Position numbers and translations under genes: made by a program. Of a stretch of 64,000 nt of DNA, positions 14,797-24,603 are shown one piece after another. The stretch's first letter is position 1; each line of letters begins with the position of its first letter. The stretch covers positions 3,162,001 to 3,226,000 of the forward strand of contig NZ_LT796768.1 in the NCBI RefSeq assembly GCF_900167475.1, written 5' to 3'. Under the pieces are notes generated by a model that saw nothing but the letters and a program-made list of their open reading frames with translations, was not told where the DNA came from and did not search any database. This DNA comes from Aeromicrobium choanae (GTDB lineage: Bacteria > Actinomycetota > Actinomycetes > Propionibacteriales > Nocardioidaceae).

Positions 14797-15647
14797 GGGG
14801 CGGCCAGCAGGTCCTCGACGAGGTCGAGCAGGCGGGCGCGCAGCGGAGCGGCGGCGTCTGTGAAGTCGCGCTGACGACGCACGTACTCGGCCTTGCCCTC
14901 CGGAGTCTCGATCCGGATGGGCTCGTAGCCGAGGTGGCCGAGGTCGTACGGCGAGGCCATCATGTCGACCTCGCGCACGGCCAGTGCCAGCTCGAACGTG
15001 TCGAGGACGATCGTCGCCTCGACGAACGGCAGCAGCCGGAAGGCGATGCGGTACAGGTCCATCGTGGCGTGGAGGCAGCCCGGCTGCTCCCACTCGAGCT
15101 GGTGCTCGCGGCCCAGCTCCTCGATGTTCAGGGGGCGCGCCTCGTCGGTGAAGAACCGGAACGCGTCGACGTGGGTGCACGTGAGCTTGTGCGACTCCAC
15201 GACCTCGTCGGTGCCGGCACCGCCCAGGCGCAGGGGCGCGGGGTGCCGCCGGTCGTCCGCGTCGCGGTAGACCATGGCCCACTCGTGCAGCCCGAAGCAG
15301 CCCGTCCGGGCCGGGCGCGAGGCCGTGCGGGTGAGCAGCTCACGCGTCCACCGCAGCCCCGGCAGCCGCTTCTCAAGCCGCGAGGAGTCGACCGAGACCA
15401 GGTCGTCGTCCTCGACGTAGGCACCGAGCGCGGCGTACTCCGGCGCGTCGGCCAGTCCGATGCCGAGCCCCGGGTGCCAACGCTCGAGGGCACCGGGGGA
15501 GAGGTTGTAGTACTCGAACAGGAAGTCCGCGACGGGGTGCTTCTCGCCGTTAGCCCGGCGCGCCAGGTGCGGTGCGGTGTGCCTGCGAGCCCGCTCGCGG
15601 TGGGCCTCCGCGAGCGGCATCCAGTCGGCGCGGCTCAGGACCTGCAT
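14784..15647 (-). CDS. Conserved actinobacterial protein, usually annotated '3-methyladenine DNA glycosylase'
   Basis: 287 aa from the ATG at 15647; a longer in-frame start at 15776 would lie inside zur and is rejected. Readable blocks include APHLARRANGEKHPVADFLFEYYNLSPGALERWHPG and GCFGLHEWAMVY. I recognise the family from actinobacterial genomes under the name 3-methyladenine DNA glycosylase, but I see neither a helix-hairpin-helix nor AAG-type motifs, so the biochemical name is doubtful. It overlaps the zur end by 13 bases, placing it last in the zinc transcript. Its last residues and stop come from an interspersed repeat. Confidence 0.7.
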   Translation of the reverse strand: MQVLSRADWMPLAEAHRERARRHTAPHLARRANGEKHPVADFLFEYYNLSPGALERWHPGLGIGLADAPEYAALGAYVEDDDLVSVDSSRLEKRLPGLRWTRELLTRTASRPARTGCFGLHEWAMVYRDADDRRHPAPLRLGGAGTDEVVESHKLTCTHVDAFRFFTDEARPLNIEELGREHQLEWEQPGCLHATMDLYRIAFRLLPFVEATIVLDTFELALAVREVDMMASPYDLGHLGYEPIRIETPEGKAEYVRRQRDFTDAAAPLRARLLDLVEDLLAAPVVE

Positions 15648-16024
15648 GATCCGCAGGTGCCGAAGATCTCCAGCGTGTGCGAGACGTCGGCGAACCCGTT
15701 CTCGTCGGCCACGCGGTCGGCCCACTTCTCGACCGTGGGTCCCTCGACCTCCACCGTGCGGCCGCATGAGCGGCACACCAGATGGTGGTGGTGCCCGCGG
15801 CTGCAGCGTCGGTACAGCGTCTCGCCGTCGTCGGAGCGCAGGGCGTCGACCTCATCGGCCTCCGCGAGCGCCTGGAGGGTGCGGTAGACGGTGGACAGGC
15901 CGACGTTGTCGCCGCGATCCTCCAGCAGCGCATGGATCTGCTGGGCCGAGCGGAACCCGTCGAGGTCCTCCATCAGATCGGCGACGGCGCGCCGCTGGCG
16001 GGTGTTACGCGGTGCCTCGACCAC
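15635..16024 (-). CDS. zur: Fur-family repressor, most likely the zinc sensor Zur
   Basis: 129 aa from a GTG. Winged helix at residues 8-75 (TRQRRAVADLMEDLDGFRSAQQIHALL, NVGLSTVYRTLQALAE), then the metal region RCSRGHHHHLVCRSCG and the C-terminal CGSC pair, giving the structural CxxC...CxxC zinc site. It is called Zur rather than Fur because it directly follows znuB (20-base overlap) in a znuACB transcript, and twin Zur-like boxes sit at the head of that transcript. The unit would therefore be autoregulated. Confidence 0.88.
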   Translation of the reverse strand: MVEAPRNTRQRRAVADLMEDLDGFRSAQQIHALLEDRGDNVGLSTVYRTLQALAEADEVDALRSDDGETLYRRCSRGHHHHLVCRSCGRTVEVEGPTVEKWADRVADENGFADVSHTLEIFGTCGSCRS

Positions 16025-16847
16025 GAGGTGCCTCCTGTCGGGAACGGACGTGCGTCAAGCCGTGGGCCAGCGCCGCCACGATGAACACGCCGAGGGCGAT
16101 CACGACGATCGTGGGCCCCGGCTGGGTGTCGATCTGGACGCTCACCAGCAGCCCGGAGACGGCCGAGAACAGGCCGATCCCCATGGCAGCCAGGTGGGTG
16201 GAGCGGAAGCTCCGCGTCAGCTGCTGGGCCGCGGCCACCGGCACCACCATGAGCGCCGAGACCAGGAGCAGGCCGACGGTGCGCATCGCCACCGTGATCG
16301 TCACCGCCGCAAGCACGGCGATGAGCATCCCGTAAAGCCGCACGGGGATCCCCATGACGCGCGCCTGCGACTCGTCCTGGCACAGCGCGAACAGCTGCGG
16401 CCGCAGGGCGACGGTCGTCGCGATCACGACGAGGCCCAGCACGATCACGACCGCCAGGTCGGCGCGGCTCATCGTGATGATCGAGCCGAACAGGTACTGG
16501 TTCAGCACGGCTGCGGACTCGCCCGCCAGGTTCGTCAGCAGGACGCCGCCGGCGAGGCCGCCGTAGAACAGCATCGCCAGGGCCAGATCGCCGCTCGTGC
16601 GTCCGATGCTGCGCAGGACCTCGAGCAGGATCGCGCCGCCCACGGCGACGACCACGGCGGTGGCGAGGGGCGCGACGCCCGTGAGCAGGCCGAGCGCGAC
16701 GCCCGTGAGCGCCACGTGTCCGAGCCCGTCGCCGAGCAGGGCCAGCCGGCGCTGCACGACGAACGTGCCGACGGCCGGCGCCGACAGGCCGGTGATGATC
16801 GCGGCGGCCAGGGCGTACTGCATGAACGCGTAGGACAGGACGCTCAT
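16005..16847 (-). CDS. znuB: Zinc ABC transporter membrane subunit ZnuB
   Basis: 280 aa with eight or nine hydrophobic helices. Opens FMQYALAAAIITGLSAPAVGTFVVQRRLALLGDGLGHVALTGVALG, the typical ABC-3 permease start; GVLLTNLAGESAAVLNQYLFG and the late GLLLVSALMVVPVAAAQ are family blocks. It forms the homodimeric channel fed by ZnuA and driven by ZnuC. Start ATG overlaps the znuC stop by four bases. Confidence 0.94.
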   Translation of the reverse strand: MSVLSYAFMQYALAAAIITGLSAPAVGTFVVQRRLALLGDGLGHVALTGVALGLLTGVAPLATAVVVAVGGAILLEVLRSIGRTSGDLALAMLFYGGLAGGVLLTNLAGESAAVLNQYLFGSIITMSRADLAVVIVLGLVVIATTVALRPQLFALCQDESQARVMGIPVRLYGMLIAVLAAVTITVAMRTVGLLLVSALMVVPVAAAQQLTRSFRSTHLAAMGIGLFSAVSGLLVSVQIDTQPGPTIVVIALGVFIVAALAHGLTHVRSRQEAPRGRGTA

Positions 16848-17632
16848 GCCTTGCCTCCGGGAAGGGGTCCCTCGGCGGGCACGGGCCGGGTCACGGTGGG
16901 CTCGCTGCTGTGCGCGTGGTCGTGCGCGTGGTCGTGGGTCCCGGGGCCGAGTGCGGGCCCTTCGTACTCCACCAGCCCGCGGTCGAGATGGACCGCGCGG
17001 TCCACCAGCGGAGCCATCGGGCCGAGCTCGTGCGCCACCATGACGATCGCCGTGCCGCGCTCGTCGAGCTCGCCCAGCAGGCCGGCGAAGACCTCGGCGC
17101 TGTGCGCGTCGATGCCGGCCATCGGCTCGTCCATGACGACGAGGTCGGGATCGGCCACGAGGGCCCGGGCGATGTGGGCGCGCTGCTGCTGGCCGCCGGA
17201 GAGGTGCGTGATCGGCCGCTTGGCGAGATCGGCCAGCCCGACGCGCTCGATCAGGTCGGCGGCGGAGGTGCGGTCGGCCCGGGAAGGCCAGCCGAAGCGC
17301 GGCCGGCGCGAGAGCGCCCCGCTCACCACGACCTCGGTGACCGTGGCCGGGACGCCGGAGAACGCCTCGGGGCGCTGGGCCATGTACCCGACCCGCTGGT
17401 GGTCGGTGAAGCGCCCGAGCGGGGTGCCGAAGAGCTCGATCGAGCCACGGTGCGGCAGCAGGCCCACGAGGGCGCGCACGAGCGTGGACTTCCCCGATCC
17501 GTTGGCGCCCAGGATCGTGACGAACTCGCCCGGCATCACCCGCAGGTCGACCCCGCGCAGCACCTGGGTGCCGCCGAGGTCGACCGTGACGCCGGTGGCG
17601 TCGATGACGGGTGGGACGGAGTGGGAGGTCAC
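16844..17632 (-). CDS. znuC: Zinc ABC transporter ATPase ZnuC
   Basis: 262 aa from the GTG at 17632, which overlaps the znuA stop by four bases; the open frame extends further but only as shadow of znuA. Walker A GANGSGKST near residue 43, signature LSGGQQQRAHIARAL, Walker B LVVMDEPMAGID, H-loop MVAHELG. The C-terminus ends with a His/Asp-rich tail (HDHAHDHAHSSEP) that could bind zinc. Supplies energy for Zn import with ZnuB and ZnuA. Confidence 0.93.
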   Translation of the reverse strand: MTSHSVPPVIDATGVTVDLGGTQVLRGVDLRVMPGEFVTILGANGSGKSTLVRALVGLLPHRGSIELFGTPLGRFTDHQRVGYMAQRPEAFSGVPATVTEVVVSGALSRRPRFGWPSRADRTSAADLIERVGLADLAKRPITHLSGGQQQRAHIARALVADPDLVVMDEPMAGIDAHSAEVFAGLLGELDERGTAIVMVAHELGPMAPLVDRAVHLDRGLVEYEGPALGPGTHDHAHDHAHSSEPTVTRPVPAEGPLPGGKA

Positions 17633-18570
17633 GAGCAGTCGTTCGCCTTCGTCAGCGCGTCGAGGTTCTGTCGCATGAGGGAAACGTAGTCCTCGTCGGT
17701 GGTCTCGTCCGAGAGACCCTCGATCGGATCGAGCACGGCCGTCTCGGCACCGGTCTCGCGCGCCACGGTCTCGGCCAGGGCGGAGGACGCGAGGCGCTCG
17801 GTGAAGATCGTCGTGATGCCGTGGTCCTCGACCTCCTCGGTGATCTCGGCCAGCGCCGCCGTGGTCGGCTCGGACTGCGGGTCGATGCCGCTGATCGCGA
17901 TCTGCGTCAGGCCGTACGCCGCGGCGAGGTGCCCGAACGCGGCGTGCGACGTGACGAACTCCGTCTGCTTGCACGAGGCCAGACCGCTCGTGAAGTCGGC
18001 GTCGAGGTCCTCCAGCTCGGCGATCAGCTCGTCGGCGTTCGCCTCGTAGGTGGACGCGCCGTCGGGATCGGCCTCGACGAGGGCGTCCCGCACCCCTGCG
18101 GCGGCGGTCACCATGTTGGCCGGGTTCAGCCACACGTGCGGGTCGACGCCGCCGTGGTCGTGGTCGTGACCCTCGTGGTCGTGGCCCTCGTCGTGCTCGT
18201 GGTCGTGCTCGTCCTCGCCCTCGATCGGCGCCACGCCCTCGGCCATGTCCACGGTGGACCCGCCGTCACGGTCGGCGTCCTCGACCGCGTGGTCGACGGC
18301 CTCCTGGAAGTTCGACAGGTACACCACGACGTCGGCCTCGTTGACCTTCATGACCTGCTTGGCCGTCAGCTCGAGGTCGTGGGCCTCGGCGCCGGGCGAC
18401 GTGAGCGTCGTGACCGAGACGTCGTCGCCACCGATCCGCTCGGCGAGGAACTGCGCGGGATAGAACGAGGCCACGACCTCGGTGCGGCCGTCGTCGTCAC
18501 CGCCTCCGGCGCAGGCGACGAGGGTTCCGGCGAGGAGGGCGGTGCACGCGGCACCGGCAAGCAGCTTCAT
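17629..18570 (-). CDS. znuA: Zinc-binding lipoprotein ZnuA
   Basis: 313 aa from the ATG at 18570 (in-frame TTG 18585 and ATG 18579 are alternatives). Lipoprotein signal with lipobox LVAC. Cluster A-I binding-protein fold, with a long mobile His/Asp/Glu loop between residues ~125 and 150 (EDEHDHEHDEGHDHEGHDHDHG) followed by DPHVWLNP, the hallmark of zinc-specific ZnuA. It captures Zn2+ outside the membrane for ZnuBC. First gene of znuA-znuC-znuB-zur. Two Zur-like palindromes lie at and before its start codon. Confidence 0.94.
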   Translation of the reverse strand: MKLLAGAACTALLAGTLVACAGGGDDDGRTEVVASFYPAQFLAERIGGDDVSVTTLTSPGAEAHDLELTAKQVMKVNEADVVVYLSNFQEAVDHAVEDADRDGGSTVDMAEGVAPIEGEDEHDHEHDEGHDHEGHDHDHGGVDPHVWLNPANMVTAAAGVRDALVEADPDGASTYEANADELIAELEDLDADFTSGLASCKQTEFVTSHAAFGHLAAAYGLTQIAISGIDPQSEPTTAALAEITEEVEDHGITTIFTERLASSALAETVARETGAETAVLDPIEGLSDETTDEDYVSLMRQNLDALTKANDCS

Positions 18571-18584
18571 GACAACCATTCTCA
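18570..18584 (-). promoter_or_regulatory. Zur-like box A, overlapping the znuA start
   Basis: Plus strand TGACAACCATTCTCA, an imperfect 7-1-7 palindrome of the actinobacterial Zur type (TGAnAAnnnTTnTCA). It covers the first base of the chosen znuA ATG. Its centre is 22 bp, two helix turns, from box B. Confidence 0.6.
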
Positions 18585-18591
18585 AGAGGGT

Positions 18592-18606
18592 TGAGAACGA
18601 TTGTCA
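18592..18606 (-). promoter_or_regulatory. Zur-like box B upstream of znuA
   Basis: Plus strand TGAGAACGATTGTCA, again TGAnAAnnnTTnTCA with matching outer arms. It fills the 38-base gap between the stop of the upstream ATPase gene (18609) and znuA. Together with box A it gives two Zur dimer sites on the same helix face. The match to Zur consensus is from memory of Mycobacterium and Streptomyces sites. Confidence 0.6.
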
Positions 18607-18608
18607 AA

Positions 18609-19673
<1,065 letters not shown>

Positions 19674-19716
19674 GATGCTGCTCCGTTCGCTCTTCTTGAC
19701 GGACTGGGGGTCCTGG

Positions 19717-20475
19717 TCACCACGGCTGTCCGTCCGGCTTGTGGGCCACGGTGAAGCGGTAGTAGTCGATCAGCTTCAGGTCCGCGGCGGCGTCCGGATC
19801 GACGACGCACGTCACGTGCGGGTGCAGCTGGAGCACGGAGGCGGGACAGAAGGCGCTCACCGGTCCCTCGACCGCGGCGGCGACCGCGGCCGCCTTGGCC
19901 GACCCGGTGGCGACGAGCACGACGTGCCGGGCCTCGAGGATCGTGCCCAGGCCCTGCGTCAGCACGTGGATCGGCACCTCGTCGACCGAGCCGAAGAAGC
20001 GGGCGTTGTCCTCACGCGTGCGCGGGGTCAGGGTCTTGGTCCGCGTGCGCGAGGCGAGCGACGAGCCGGGCTCGTTGAAGCCGATGTGGCCGTCGGTGCC
20101 GATCCCGAGCAGCTGCACGTCGATGCCACCCGCGGCGGCGATGGCCGCCTCGTAGCGGGCTGCCTCGGCGGGGACGTCCGCCGCCTCGCCGTCCGGCCCG
20201 TCGACCTCGATGCCCGCGCGGTCGGTGAAGTCGCGCCGGATCACCGAGTGGTAGCTCTCCGGGTGTGAGCGGGGCAGGCCGAGGTACTCGTCGAGCGTGA
20301 AGGCGCGCACCCCGTCGAAGGAGAGCTCGCCGGCGTCGCGCCGGCGCAGCAGCGACGTGTAGACCGGCAGCGGCGACGACCCGGTGGCGAGGCCGAGCAC
20401 CGCTCCCGGGCGCAGGTGTCCGGCGATCGCGTCCGCGGCGACCTCGCCCGGGCTCGTGGTGACGACGACCTCCAT
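19717..20475 (-). CDS. nagB: Glucosamine-6-phosphate deaminase NagB
   Basis: 252 aa. LGLATGSSPLPVY (phosphate loop), FTLDEYLGL (Asp general base), LLGIGTDGHIGFNEPGS (catalytic Asp-His region), all in the expected order. It converts glucosamine-6-P to fructose-6-P and ammonia, the last step of GlcNAc use. The length is near that of compact NagB proteins. The start codon overlaps the stop of the ROK kinase gene by one base, coupling the two. Confidence 0.94.
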   Translation of the reverse strand: MEVVVTTSPGEVAADAIAGHLRPGAVLGLATGSSPLPVYTSLLRRRDAGELSFDGVRAFTLDEYLGLPRSHPESYHSVIRRDFTDRAGIEVDGPDGEAADVPAEAARYEAAIAAAGGIDVQLLGIGTDGHIGFNEPGSSLASRTRTKTLTPRTREDNARFFGSVDEVPIHVLTQGLGTILEARHVVLVATGSAKAAAVAAAVEGPVSAFCPASVLQLHPHVTCVVDPDAAADLKLIDYYRFTVAHKPDGQPW

Positions 20476-21398
20476 CAGTCCGTCACCCCCTCGGTGACGA
20501 GCAGCGCGGCCCCGCGGGTGCCGACGGCGACGTGCTCGGGAAGCCAGCGCACGCGGTCCGCGACCGGGACGGCGCGGCCCACGAGGGCGCGGTCGTCGTG
20601 GTGCAGGCGCGTCGTGACCGCGGCGCGCAGTGCGGGGTTGCGGGAGACGACGCCACCGGTCACGAGGATCAGCGCGACGTCGGGACCGTAGGCCAGCAGG
20701 GTGATCGCGTGCGCGATCCCGGCCGTGAGGTCGTCAGCAGTGCGGGCGGCGACCTCGTCCCCGGCCTCGGCCGCGGCGAAGAGCTGGCGTGCGGTGCCGG
20801 CCCAGCCCCTTCGCAGCCCGCTGCCCGAGGCGTACAGCTCGAGGCAGCCGGTCTGGCCGCACGGGCAGACCGGGCCGCTGCGATCGAAGACCAGGTGGCC
20901 GATCTCGCCGGCCGAGCCGGTCGCCCCCGCGCGAAGCCGACCGCCGAGCACCATCCCCGCGGCGAGCCCCGTGCCGATGTTGAGCAGCGCGTAGTCGTCG
21001 ATGCCGGGATCGTGCTGCGCGAGCCAGCCGCGAGCGCCGAGCGCCGCGGTCTTGACGTCGTTCTCGACGCCGACCGGCCCGGGAGTGAGCGCCCGCAGCG
21101 TCGGCAGCAGGTCGAGCGGCTCCGCGCCGAGACCGAGGTTGACCGCATGGGAGGCGGTGCCCTTGGTGACGAAGCCGGGGATGCCGACGCCGATGCCCAC
21201 GACGTCGGCGTCGGGGCCGACCTGGGCGGCGAGGGCGTGGACGACCGTGGTGATCCCGTCGCGGATGCCGTCGGCGCCGAGCTCGGTGCGGTGCCGCAGC
21301 TCGGCCAGCGCGGGCCCGGTGGGATCGGTGGGCGAGACGGCCATCGCCTTGACGGAGGTGCCGCCGATGTCGAGGCCGACGAGGATCGGGGTGGTCAC
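20475..21398 (-). CDS. nagK: ROK-family sugar kinase, probably N-acetylglucosamine kinase
   Basis: 307 aa from a GTG. N-terminal ATP loop LVGLDIGGTSVKAM, catalytic Asp in VENDVKTAALG, ROK zinc site CPCGQTGCLELYASG with three cysteines, and GEIGHLVF. No N-terminal HTH, so it is an enzyme rather than a repressor. Its place between a GH3 hexosaminidase and nagB argues for GlcNAc to GlcNAc-6-P, though glucokinase activity is not excluded. Overlaps the GH3 gene by four bases. Confidence 0.88.
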   Translation of the reverse strand: MTTPILVGLDIGGTSVKAMAVSPTDPTGPALAELRHRTELGADGIRDGITTVVHALAAQVGPDADVVGIGVGIPGFVTKGTASHAVNLGLGAEPLDLLPTLRALTPGPVGVENDVKTAALGARGWLAQHDPGIDDYALLNIGTGLAAGMVLGGRLRAGATGSAGEIGHLVFDRSGPVCPCGQTGCLELYASGSGLRRGWAGTARQLFAAAEAGDEVAARTADDLTAGIAHAITLLAYGPDVALILVTGGVVSRNPALRAAVTTRLHHDDRALVGRAVPVADRVRWLPEHVAVGTRGAALLVTEGVTD

Positions 21399-22843
21399 GC
21401 CGCCTCACCCCTCAGCGCGCGCGAGAGGGCAGACAGCAGGGCGGCCGACGAGCCCATCGTGCACAGGACGTCGGAGCGGTGCGCGAGCGTCGGATCCGGC
21501 CAGGCCAGCTCGACGAGTCGTGCGTGCGGGTTGGCGTCGAGCTGGGCGGTGATCCAGGCGCGGACGTCAGGGTGGGCGGCGGCGCGGCGGGCGACCACGA
21601 GGACCTCGCCGCCGAACGGCCCGACACCCTCCAGGTCACGAGCGGTGAGGTCGACGACGGCGGCGTCCACGTCGAGGCGGCCCCAGTCGGTCCAGCCCAC
21701 GGCGGGGTTGGTGCCGGTGTCGATGCGCACGACGGTGGCGCGTCCCGCAAGCGGGCTGACGCCGAGCCGGGACACCACCTCCGCCGCGACCTTCTCGGAG
21801 GCGATCCGTGCGGTCTCGATCGTTCCGGGCTCGGGCGCGGGACGGCCGGCCCAGTCGGCACGCAGCCGCTCGACCCGTGCCGCCGCGTCCCGGAGCCGGG
21901 CGCGATCCAGGGTGCCCGCGTCGACCGCCGCGACGACGGCCTCCACGGCCGCGGTGAGCGCGCTCGGTCCGGACGAGGGCTCCGGGCCGAGGCACAGCAG
22001 GTCGGCCCCCGCGGCCAGCGAGGCCACGGCCGCGCCGCCAAGGCCGAGGGTGCCGCTGGCGCCGGCCATGTCGAGCGCGTCGCTGACGATCACCCCGTCG
22101 TAGCCGAGCTCCTCACGCAGCAGCCCGGTCAGGACGGCACGGCTCAACGTGGCAGGGCGGCCGGGGTCGAACGCGGCCAGGACCACGTGCGAGGTCATGA
22201 TCGACGCCGCCCCCGCCTCGATCGCGGCCCGGAACGGCACCAGCTCACGCTCGCGCAGGACCGCGGCGGAGGCGTCGACACGCGGCAGCTCCAGGTGCGA
22301 GTCGGCACTGGTGTCGCCGTGCCCGGGGAAGTGCTTCACGCTCGCCGCGACGCCCGAGGAGGCCAGTCCCTCGACGAAGGCGGCCACGTGGCGGGCCACG
22401 AGCGCCGGGTCCGCGCCGAAGCTGCGGGTGCCGATGACGGGGTTGGCGGCGTTGCTGTTCGCGTCGGCGCACGGCGCCAGGTCCAGCCACACGCCGGCTT
22501 CACGGAGCTCGGCACCGATGCCGGCCGCGATCGTGCGGGTGAGCGCGACGTCGTCGACGACGCCCAGGGCGGCGTTGCCCGGATGCGGGCTGCCCGTCGC
22601 CATGTGCAGGCGGGTCACGTCGCCGCCCTCCTCGTCGAGGGCCAGGATCCGCGTCGGGTCCAGCGCCGCGACGGCACGCGCGACGGGACGGACGTCGCCG
22701 TCCGTGGGCAGGTTGTCGCCGTAGAGGCAGATCCCGGCCAGTCCGTCGTCGAACGCCCGCGCCAGCCACGACGGAACCCGCGGGCCGTGGAACGCGGCCA
22801 GCATCACGCCGTGGGCGTCGGTGCGCACCGAGTCGTCGGTCAT
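21395..22843 (-). CDS. nagZ: GH3 beta-N-acetylhexosaminidase (NagZ-like), cytoplasmic
   Basis: 482 aa from the ATG at 22843, overlapping the permease stop by four bases. NagZ-type motif KHFPGHGDTSADSH holds the Asp-His acid/base dyad; the nucleophile Asp lies in VIVSDALDMAG. No signal peptide, so it acts after import. A C-terminal domain of ~130 residues follows the barrel, longer than the Gram-negative single-domain NagZ and like Gram-positive two-domain forms. Inside a sugar-uptake operon it probably cleaves imported chitobiose or muropeptide-type oligosaccharides. It could also be a GH3 GlcNAc phosphorylase. Confidence 0.88.
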   Translation of the reverse strand: MTDDSVRTDAHGVMLAAFHGPRVPSWLARAFDDGLAGICLYGDNLPTDGDVRPVARAVAALDPTRILALDEEGGDVTRLHMATGSPHPGNAALGVVDDVALTRTIAAGIGAELREAGVWLDLAPCADANSNAANPVIGTRSFGADPALVARHVAAFVEGLASSGVAASVKHFPGHGDTSADSHLELPRVDASAAVLRERELVPFRAAIEAGAASIMTSHVVLAAFDPGRPATLSRAVLTGLLREELGYDGVIVSDALDMAGASGTLGLGGAAVASLAAGADLLCLGPEPSSGPSALTAAVEAVVAAVDAGTLDRARLRDAAARVERLRADWAGRPAPEPGTIETARIASEKVAAEVVSRLGVSPLAGRATVVRIDTGTNPAVGWTDWGRLDVDAAVVDLTARDLEGVGPFGGEVLVVARRAAAHPDVRAWITAQLDANPHARLVELAWPDPTLAHRSDVLCTMGSSAALLSALSRALRGEAA

Positions 22844-23667
22844 CCCTTCACCGCCCCCGAGACGAGGCCGGAGGTCATCCGGCCCTGGACGATCATGAAG
22901 AACACGATGACCGGGACGGCGACCATCGTCGCGCCGGCCATCACGCCGGGCCAGTCGATCGCCTCGTTGGACACGTCGGACAGCCCGCGCAGCCACAGCG
23001 GCAGCGTGCGGTTCGACGGGTCCATCACCACGACGGCGAGGGTGAACTCGTTCCAGGCCTGCAGGAAGCCGTAGACGCTGGCCGCCACCAGTCCGGGCGC
23101 AAGCAGCGGGAACGTGATCGTGAAGAACGCGCGCGTGCGGCTGCAGCCGTCGACCATCGCGGCCTCCTCCAGGTCGATCGGGACTCCGTCGGCGAAGCCG
23201 CGCAGCATCCAGATCGTGAAGGGCAGGATCATCGCGATGTACAGCAGGCCCAGACCGCCGATCGTGTTGTAGAGGCCGGCGTCGCCGAGCATCTTGTACT
23301 GGCTGATGAACAGCGCCTCCGGCGGGATCATCTGGATCGCCAGGACGACGAGGACGAACTGGCCGCGCCCACGGAAGCGGAACCGCGAGATCGCGACGGC
23401 CCCCAGGAACGCGCACAGCCCGGCGCAGATCACGGCGATCATCGTCACGGTGATGCTGAGCTTGAACGAGTCGACGAACGCGTCGTCGAAGACCCGCGCG
23501 AAGCCCGAGCCCGTGAGCTCGCGGGGGAACCAGGCCGGCTCGGGGGAGCGCAGCCGGTCGGCCGGCTGGAACGCGCTGTTGAGGATCCAGTAGACCGGGA
23601 ACACCCAGACGACGGCGACCACGATGGCCAGGGCACCCCACAGGCGGCGGGTGGTCGTGCGCCTCAT
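22840..23667 (-). CDS. Sugar ABC transporter permease, MalG/DasC type
   Basis: 275 aa from the ATG at 23667, overlapping the other permease's stop by four bases. Six transmembrane segments; the cytoplasmic EAA loop reads DLEEAAMVDGCSRTRAFFTITFPLLAPG. It begins with a basic MRRTTTRRLW segment and a first helix. Together with the MalF-type permease it forms the membrane channel for the sugar taken by the binding protein. Confidence 0.93.
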   Translation of the reverse strand: MRRTTTRRLWGALAIVVAVVWVFPVYWILNSAFQPADRLRSPEPAWFPRELTGSGFARVFDDAFVDSFKLSITVTMIAVICAGLCAFLGAVAISRFRFRGRGQFVLVVLAIQMIPPEALFISQYKMLGDAGLYNTIGGLGLLYIAMILPFTIWMLRGFADGVPIDLEEAAMVDGCSRTRAFFTITFPLLAPGLVAASVYGFLQAWNEFTLAVVVMDPSNRTLPLWLRGLSDVSNEAIDWPGVMAGATMVAVPVIVFFMIVQGRMTSGLVSGAVKG

Positions 23668-24563
23668 CGCGACTCCTTCAGCAGCGCGCGGACGTAGCCC
23701 GCGGTGAGGATGAGGGTCAGCACGAGCACGAACATCGCCAGCGCGGAGGCCATGCCGTAGTCGCTCTGGCCGATGCCGAGCGTGTAGATGTAGGTGCCGA
23801 GCAGGTGCGTCTTGCTCGGCGTGCCGCCGACTCCCTGCAGGTAGTAGATCTGGGCGAACACCCGCAGGTCCCACACGACCTGCAGCAGCAGGGTGATCGT
23901 CAGGACGGGGCGGATCGTCGGGTAGACGATGTGGCGGAACCGCTGCCAGGCGTTCGCGCCGTCGAGCTCGCCGGCCTCGAGTGCGTCCTCGGACACCTGG
24001 GTCAGGGCCGCGTAGATGGTGAACATGACGAACGGGACGCTCATCCACACGACGATCACGGTCGCCACGAAGTAGAAGGACAGCGGGTTCGTCAGCCAGT
24101 TGTGCCCGTCGAAGGACTCGAAGCCGAGGTGGACGAGCGTCCAGTTGATGACGCCGTAGCGGGTGTCGAAGAGCCACTGCCACGAGGTCATCGCGGCGAT
24201 CACCGGCATGGCCCACGCGAGCAGCATCGCGATCTGGAGCGTCAGCCGGGGTCCGCGCGACACGTGCTTCAGCAGTACCGCCAGCGCGATCCCGATGACC
24301 ATCGTCACGGCCACGTTGACGGCGCAGAACGCGAGCGACCGGCCGACGACGGCCCACATCTGCGGGTCGGTGAACAGCGCGGTGTAGTTCTCCAGACCGA
24401 CGAAGGGCGCGGCCTGGCCGAACTGCTGCGCCCGGCCGTACTCCTGGAAGGACATGACGACCTGGCGCACGAGGGGATAGCCCATGGCGATCCCGAGGAT
24501 CACCACCGCGGGCGTCAGCAGGGCGTAGGGCCCGAACCTGCGGGCCACCGTCTGCGTGCTCAT
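23664..24563 (-). CDS. Sugar ABC transporter permease, MalF/DasB type
   Basis: 299 aa, six transmembrane segments, EAA loop DALEAGELDGANAWQRFRHIVYPTIRP. Opens FGPYALLTPAVVILGIAMGYPLVRQVVMSF, typical of CUT1 permeases for oligosaccharides. A strong hairpin at 24604-24629 separates it from the binding-protein gene and may lower its expression relative to that protein. Confidence 0.93.
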   Translation of the reverse strand: MSTQTVARRFGPYALLTPAVVILGIAMGYPLVRQVVMSFQEYGRAQQFGQAAPFVGLENYTALFTDPQMWAVVGRSLAFCAVNVAVTMVIGIALAVLLKHVSRGPRLTLQIAMLLAWAMPVIAAMTSWQWLFDTRYGVINWTLVHLGFESFDGHNWLTNPLSFYFVATVIVVWMSVPFVMFTIYAALTQVSEDALEAGELDGANAWQRFRHIVYPTIRPVLTITLLLQVVWDLRVFAQIYYLQGVGGTPSKTHLLGTYIYTLGIGQSDYGMASALAMFVLVLTLILTAGYVRALLKESR

Positions 24564-24603
24564 CGTTCCTCCTTCCCTGGGCAGTGTGCTCCCGGCAGGC
24601 GGC

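Follow-up and report, generated by a model that had tools for sequence, protein, structure and literature searches.

In Aeromicrobium choanae, the 38-bp gap before znuA is filled by two perfect Zur-box dyads, and this segment very probably combines promoter, operator and start codon in one unit that drives a leaderless, Zur-repressed znuA-znuC-znuB-zur message. Judged from its sequence and its conservation, the element is real, conserved and functional-looking, and it is an example of a type of switch that is already known. What it may add is modest and testable, namely that the promoter geometry sets the spacing of the operators and that the paired boxes outlive a pair of charged residues in Zur. 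A review noted that the significance of such pairing, with Zur boxes on the -35 and -10 elements, 'has remained unclear' (PMC6103462); the answer offered here is that the spacing follows the promoter and that either box can be lost.

Twin Zur boxes and the znuA operon

The dyads TGACAACCATTCTCA (18570-18584) and TGAGAACGATTGTCA (18592-18606) both matched the pattern TGAnAAnnnTTnTCA perfectly, and their centres (18577 and 18599) were 22 bp apart. The exact pattern occurred at these two sites only in the whole 3,421,926-bp genome, versus 0 sites for the backward control, and when up to one mismatch was allowed, the same two sites alone were detected in the window (the whole 64-kb stretch of DNA that was analyzed), where 100 shuffles gave an average of 0.04. 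With up to two mismatches, 105 sites per strand were obtained genome-wide versus 75 in the control, so that such weak matches were regarded mostly as noise. Five one-mismatch boxes elsewhere in the genome gave nothing convincing on inspection of the surrounding open frames, and no DNA match was found in plasmid records. The coordinates and the genome-wide pattern scan thus bore out the sequence-only reading, in which two dyads with centres 22 bp apart had been described as filling the gap before znuA. The positions of all features are given in Table 1.

Table 1. Positions of the boxes, promoter elements and genes on the analyzed stretch, with the basis of each assignment
Feature	Position	Strand	Basis and remarks
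Upstream Zur box (box 1)	18592-18606	-	5'-TGACAATCGTTCTCA; exact pattern match
Start-proximal Zur box (box 2)	18570-18584	-	5'-TGAGAATGGTTGTCA; exact pattern match; last A = A of znuA ATG
-35 hexamer TTGACA (predicted)	18602-18607	-	Promoter scan; 5/6 bases within box 1; TTGACA in 109/114 twin loci
-10 hexamer GAGAAT (predicted)	18578-18583	-	Within box 2; spacer 18; 7 nt before ATG; final T in 114/114 twin loci
znuA, zinc ABC transporter substrate-binding lipoprotein	17629-18570	-	Pfam PF01297, 3.9e-85; ATG 18570-18568; N-terminus MKLLAGAACTALLAGTLVAC
znuC, ATP-binding subunit	16844-17632	-	PF00005, 1.8e-28; GTG start; best NCBIfam model AztA, below its cut-off
znuB, permease	16005-16847	-	PF00950 (ABC-3), 1.4e-60
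zur, Fur-family zinc repressor, operon gene 4	15635-16024	-	PF01475, 6.3e-32
Sugar ABC transporter ATPase (UgpC/MsiK type)	18609-19673	-	NCBIfam PRK11650/UgpC, 5.5e-139, over cut-off

The operon is read on the minus strand in the order znuA-znuC-znuB-zur, and the co-directional UgpC/MsiK-type ATPase gene ends 38 bp ahead of znuA. The Fur-family gene at 15635-16024 is best read as zur: its predicted product has the Fur fold and is related to zinc regulators, the best PDB relatives being S. coelicolor Zur (3mwm, 6.7e-51; 7vo0) and M. tuberculosis FurB/Zur (2o03), with all of the matched NCBIfam models below their cut-offs. Both dyads are of the 7-1-7, TGAnAAnnnTTnTCA type of actinobacterial Zur operators and lie within the promoter of a zinc-uptake gene in a genome with zur. 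Motif and context (zur in fourth place within the operon; nearest solved relatives of its product from S. coelicolor and M. tuberculosis) therefore support their reading as Zur boxes, as had been proposed from the sequence alone. A Zur consensus, TGAAAATGATTTTCA, was quoted in an earlier study (PMC2823685).

Zur was found in 48 of the 49 genomes of the genus, and 30 loci were taken for comparison, of which 29 were read (L276 was left out). In 28 of the 30 Aeromicrobium genomes compared, no more than 2.5 kb separated zur from znuA; in the remaining 2, zur was on a different contig.

Operators of the Fur family resemble one another, and the boxes might accordingly be used by another protein of the family (Fur or PerR) instead of Zur. 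This is extremely improbable: the operon itself holds zur, the nearest solved relatives of its product are zinc regulators, and, among 10 loci of the genus with the exact motif that were inspected (genes named by eye), the motif adjoined genes for L28/L31-like ribosomal proteins (L252 and L254) or a second ABC transporter (L256). Such ribosomal protein paralogues and a second ABC transporter are usual Zur targets.

Predicted promoter and start of the znuA message

In a promoter scan of positions 18400-18800, a single site was detected, TTGACA-N18-GAGAAT on the minus strand, with 10 of 12 bases matched, whereas shuffles gave a mean of 0.0; the -10 hexamer accounts for 4 of the 6 bases of TATAAT. 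In leaderless promoters, the -10 element stands 6-8 nt ahead of the start codon, and GAGAAT lies 7 nt before the znuA ATG. By inspection, no AGGAGG was present before znuA, and a weak candidate for a Shine-Dalgarno sequence is GAGAA, which is part of the -10 itself and lies 9-13 nt ahead of the ATG. On the basis of the promoter geometry and the conserved position of the ATG, the znuA message is most likely leaderless. The sequence-only reading had left a choice between a leaderless message and one begun in the preceding gene; the latter is not needed, although read-through from the sugar transporter gene is possible because no terminator was found before znuA in the scanned region (18400-18800). 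The same reading had the downstream box covering the start codon, which holds for one base, the A of ATG 18570-18568, and not for the rest.

Complete cover of a start codon by the box would be given only by the in-frame ATG at 18579-18577. This codon is also one of the possible starts of a message with a leader, which would begin upstream and be translated from this ATG, from the TTG at 18585, likewise in frame, or from the ATG at 18570, with GAGAA as a weak Shine-Dalgarno candidate. We consider such a message improbable, since an ATG in that place (box positions 6-8) depends on a G at position 8, which was present in only 60 of the 114 twin loci described below, whereas the ATG at the box end was kept in 112, and since GAGAAT is accounted for as the -10 element.

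Under the leaderless reading, transcription would proceed from the -35 TTGACA (18607-18602) and the -10 GAGAAT (18583-18578), separated by the 18-bp spacer, and would start at the A of the znuA ATG (18570), give or take one base. In the presence of zinc, one Zur dimer would occupy each box, one over the -35 and the other over the -10, the transcription start and the znuA start codon, and RNA polymerase would be shut out twice over by the two bound dimers. When zinc drops, Zur would come off and the importer would be made together with more Zur, autoregulation being expected from the position of zur within the operon. The 21-22-bp spacing of the boxes would probably derive mainly from the 17-18-bp spacer of the promoter, and corresponds also to approximately two helical turns.

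Conservation of the twin boxes and probable origin of their spacing

Regions upstream of znuA were chosen without regard to boxes from the genus (46), the rest of the family (60) and the rest of the class (50), giving 156 loci. The genus sample covered 46 of 49 genomes, the others having no match (G032), a distant match only (G027) or a contig that ended at the gene (G036, L072). The family sample comprised 60 of the 86 matching non-genus genomes (120 searched), and the class sample was hand-picked from the stronger non-family matches (148 genomes searched, 116 matching), with G147, G154, G157, G180 and G181 (E values of 3e-60 to 1e-41) left out. Twin boxes were defined as two boxes at a spacing of 16-33 bp with up to 3 mismatches per box and up to 4 in total; one locus (L172) was scored as a twin only with a wider search window.

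Twin boxes were detected in 114 of the 156 upstream regions (genus, 40/46; other family, 45/60; other class, 29/50), versus 0 of 3120 Markov sequences and 1 of 156 reversed sequences. With or without a tie rule, the best spacing was 22 bp in 94 twins and 21 bp in 20, and a poorer second pairing at 31-32 bp was found in four twin loci. In 112 of the 114 twins, box 2 ended on the A of an in-frame ATG. Up to one mismatch per box sufficed for 87 twins, 86 of which were anchored on the ATG, and looser thresholds were needed for the other 27. This anchoring of box 2 on the start codon should help to fix annotations of the znuA start.

Outside the family of A. choanae, twins were found in 5 of 14 sampled families (f18, 12/12; f19, 12/12; f29, 3/4; f36, 1/1; f16, 1/10; nine others, 0/11). 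The 21-bp form was also collected with a pattern limited to spacings of 20-21 bp (3 of 393 in the class sample), so that the resulting contigs do not give the frequency of the twin form; all 43 of the 43 named contigs encode a relative of A. choanae ZnuA, and their genera include Nocardioides, Aeromicrobium, Cellulomonas, Isoptericola, Arthrobacter and others. Since 42 of the 156 loci, 6 of them from Aeromicrobium, lacked the twin form, two boxes appear dispensable. An exact box was absent from the whole genome in 5 of the 49 genomes of the genus.

A single box was observed before znuA in six Aeromicrobium genomes (L011, L012, L015, L016, L025 and L070).

After 10 duplicates were dropped from the 114 twins, constraint and base pairing were counted on 104 distinct modules. 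Position 4 of box 1 was C (the C of TTGACA) in 101 of the 104, while its mirror position was G in 11; position 7 of box 2 was T (the end of the -10) in all 104, while its mirror position was A in 55 and position 7 of box 1 was T in 62. Zur as the only shaping force is contradicted by these counts, because equal constraint on the two halves of a box would be expected and the observed constraint was lopsided.

The 42 loci without twins comprised 9 with only the ATG box, 32 with only box 1 and one without a box. Among the nine, five retained TTGAC with a spacer of 17-18 at the place of box 1 (L140, L150, L156, L158 and L208) and four did not (L160, L185, L206 and L015, the last classed here because an in-frame ATG follows its box, with the real start more likely 21 nt further on). 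Among the 32 with box 1 only, 21 had the first in-frame start codon at the distance seen in twins, 34-36 nt from the start of the box, and 11 did not. The lopsided constraint and these cases of box loss suggest that the promoter spacer probably fixes the spacing of the boxes, the boxes standing 21-22 bp apart because the promoter spacer is 17-18 bp, with the promoter serving as a scaffold for the boxes. Binding of two dimers on the same face of the helix may be a free by-product of this spacing, possibly with an importance of its own.

The inverted repeat might instead be selected as RNA. Folded as minus-strand RNA, the A. choanae element gives a 16-bp hairpin with the AUG hidden at the base of its stem (-23.4 kcal/mol, z -5.4), and such a hairpin would hide the znuA AUG in read-through messages, so that the leaderless message alone would be translated. 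Across the modules, box 1 and box 2 formed 1327 complementary pairs, versus 1288 (sd 6.1) in unstratified shuffles, 1297 (5.3) in shuffles within family groups and 1305 (4.7) in shuffles within groups and box-1 type, and in each scheme 0 of 2000 shuffles was as good, with relatedness left in by the shuffles. However, two near-palindromes of one motif are always complementary, and all 15 positions paired in only 16 of the 104 distinct modules. When 100 of the 104 modules were arranged in 50 sister pairs and the five free positions were compared, 53 single changes broke pairing and 25 kept it, while 18 double changes kept it and 11 did not. In addition, no terminator was found and no Rfam family reached its cut-off; the one sub-threshold match (ASdes, E 0.099, 19.4 bits versus a cut-off of 40) lay away from the site. 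Selection for an insulating hairpin is thus very improbable, and the structure, striking in A. choanae and not kept in relatives, was taken as a by-product of the repeated palindrome.

In its wider form, the promoter-scaffold reading describes one composite of 39-40 bases, TTGACAAnnnTTnnCA-N6/7-TGAnAATnnnTnnCATG, in the family of A. choanae and several other actinomycete families, in which sigma contacts, two operators, the transcription start and the start codon would fall on shared bases, the spacing would be dictated by the promoter spacer, and the two dimers would act as a double lock by steric hindrance and not as a cooperative switch, an arrangement that would persist where the charge pair of Zur is lost. 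We hold this wider form to be slightly more likely than not.

Cooperativity and known systems

In the sequence-only reading, side-by-side binding on one helix face was expected to give a sharp zinc response; on this view, the spacing would be selected chiefly for cooperative binding of two Zur dimers. At 10.5 bp per turn, 21 bp corresponds to 2.0 and 22 bp to about 2.1 helical turns. In E. coli, two dimers of Zur bind the znu operator with high cooperativity, through an Asp49-Arg52 contact (PMC4219657). The inner half-sites in our modules also co-varied somewhat, with 8 double changes at position 12 versus approximately 3 expected in the 50 sister pairs. Against these points, the same spacing is predicted by the 17-18-bp promoter spacer, and the promoter geometry was kept in several loci that had lost a box; the residues corresponding to Asp49 and Arg52 are Ala32 and Glu35 in A. 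choanae Zur; and independent action was favoured as most likely for such box pairs in the review (PMC6103462). Selection chiefly for cooperativity is therefore regarded as possible and rather unlikely.

The residues at the positions of the E. coli pair were D/K in 18, D/R in 4, D/T in 1, A/E in 3 and A/A in 3 of the 29 Zur proteins read from the genus. All six genomes with A/E or A/A (L270-L275) had twin boxes, and the four with D/R (L295, L297, L298 and L299) were the four members of the single-box group whose Zur was read. This distribution is opposite to that predicted by a contact of the E. coli type, since twins accompany the A/E and A/A proteins and a single box the D/R proteins; the uncoupling of charge pair and twin boxes in the genus, however, weighs only weakly against cooperativity, as the comparison was made genome by genome and perhaps only two events are involved. 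Cooperativity of the E. coli type was accordingly rejected for A. choanae, whose Zur lacks the pair and whose genus does not show a pattern in its favour. The A/E and A/A proteins are natural variants in which the role of the charge pair could be tested, and the twin-box, single-box and charge-pair-less Aeromicrobium genomes together are natural test material.

At residues 32 and 35, A/E or A/A is found in the Zur of A. choanae and of five close relatives, while D/K or D/R is present in 22 of the 29 proteins of the genus.

A close known counterpart is znuA of S. coelicolor, which like that of A. choanae is preceded by two Zur boxes, one on the -35 and one on the -10 (PMC5472717; PMC6103462). 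Each of these boxes, taken on its own, is bound by S. coelicolor Zur, with Kd values of approximately 15 and 19 nM (PMC5472717). S. coelicolor Zur has an Asp/Lys pair, unlike the Zur of A. choanae's clade. Primers for S. coelicolor znuA matched in family f18, which places Streptomyces in this family, and in its 12 sampled genomes the boxes were 22 bp apart and ended on the ATG as in A. choanae, but had 1 or 2 mismatches per box (TTTCCA and similar), whereas those of A. choanae are perfect. In the S. coelicolor paper, the znuA template is given as -107 to +87, in a sentence in which the zitB coordinates agree with numbering from the transcription start (PMC5472717). The znuA forward primer was found in 10 of 393 Streptomyces genomes, one of which (L238) also matched the reverse primer exactly; at this locus, counting from the -107 end puts the A of the ATG at +1 and the end of the reverse primer at +86 (+87 in the paper). 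The same distance from primer to ATG was obtained in 5 of the 10 forward-primer loci and other distances in the rest. If the template coordinates are counted from the transcription start, the placement at L238 hints that S. coelicolor znuA is leaderless as well.

In C. glutamicum, the Zur targets cg0042, cg0043 and cg2911 were reported as leaderless, with a Zur motif over the core promoter, the start of cg0043 being called "mapped" in the text and "predicted" in the figure legend (PMC2823685). These targets resemble A. choanae znuA, as predicted here, in both respects and differ in having one 21-bp motif each (cg2911 may also have a half site upstream of its promoter) instead of two full boxes. 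The znuABC operator of E. coli resembles the predicted A. choanae operator in that two dimers bind at the promoter of a zinc importer, and differs in its motif, in holding both dimers on 31-bp DNA and in the Asp49-Arg52 contact, which is absent in A. choanae (PMC4219657). Enterobacterial Zur boxes were described as clearly different in the review, and the yciC promoter of B. subtilis, by the description given there, is alike in having one Zur box on the -35 and another on the -10 (PMC6103462). Among the open-licence papers listed, judged by their titles and the opening lines of their abstracts, none dealt with the composite across actinomycetes or with Aeromicrobium znuA, which is a weak negative.

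Two further observations concern neighbouring genes. In two relatives of the genus (G013 and G018; loci L252 and L254), a single exact box was located at about position 1500 beside divergent genes, named by eye, that resemble zinc-free ribosomal protein paralogues of L28-like and L31-like type. Directly upstream of the zinc importer of A. choanae, an apparent cluster for amino-sugar uptake and use extends over 18609-24600 on the same strand, and contains the UgpC/MsiK-type ATPase gene (assigned with NCBIfam) as well as nagB-like, glucokinase-like and permease genes (named by eye).
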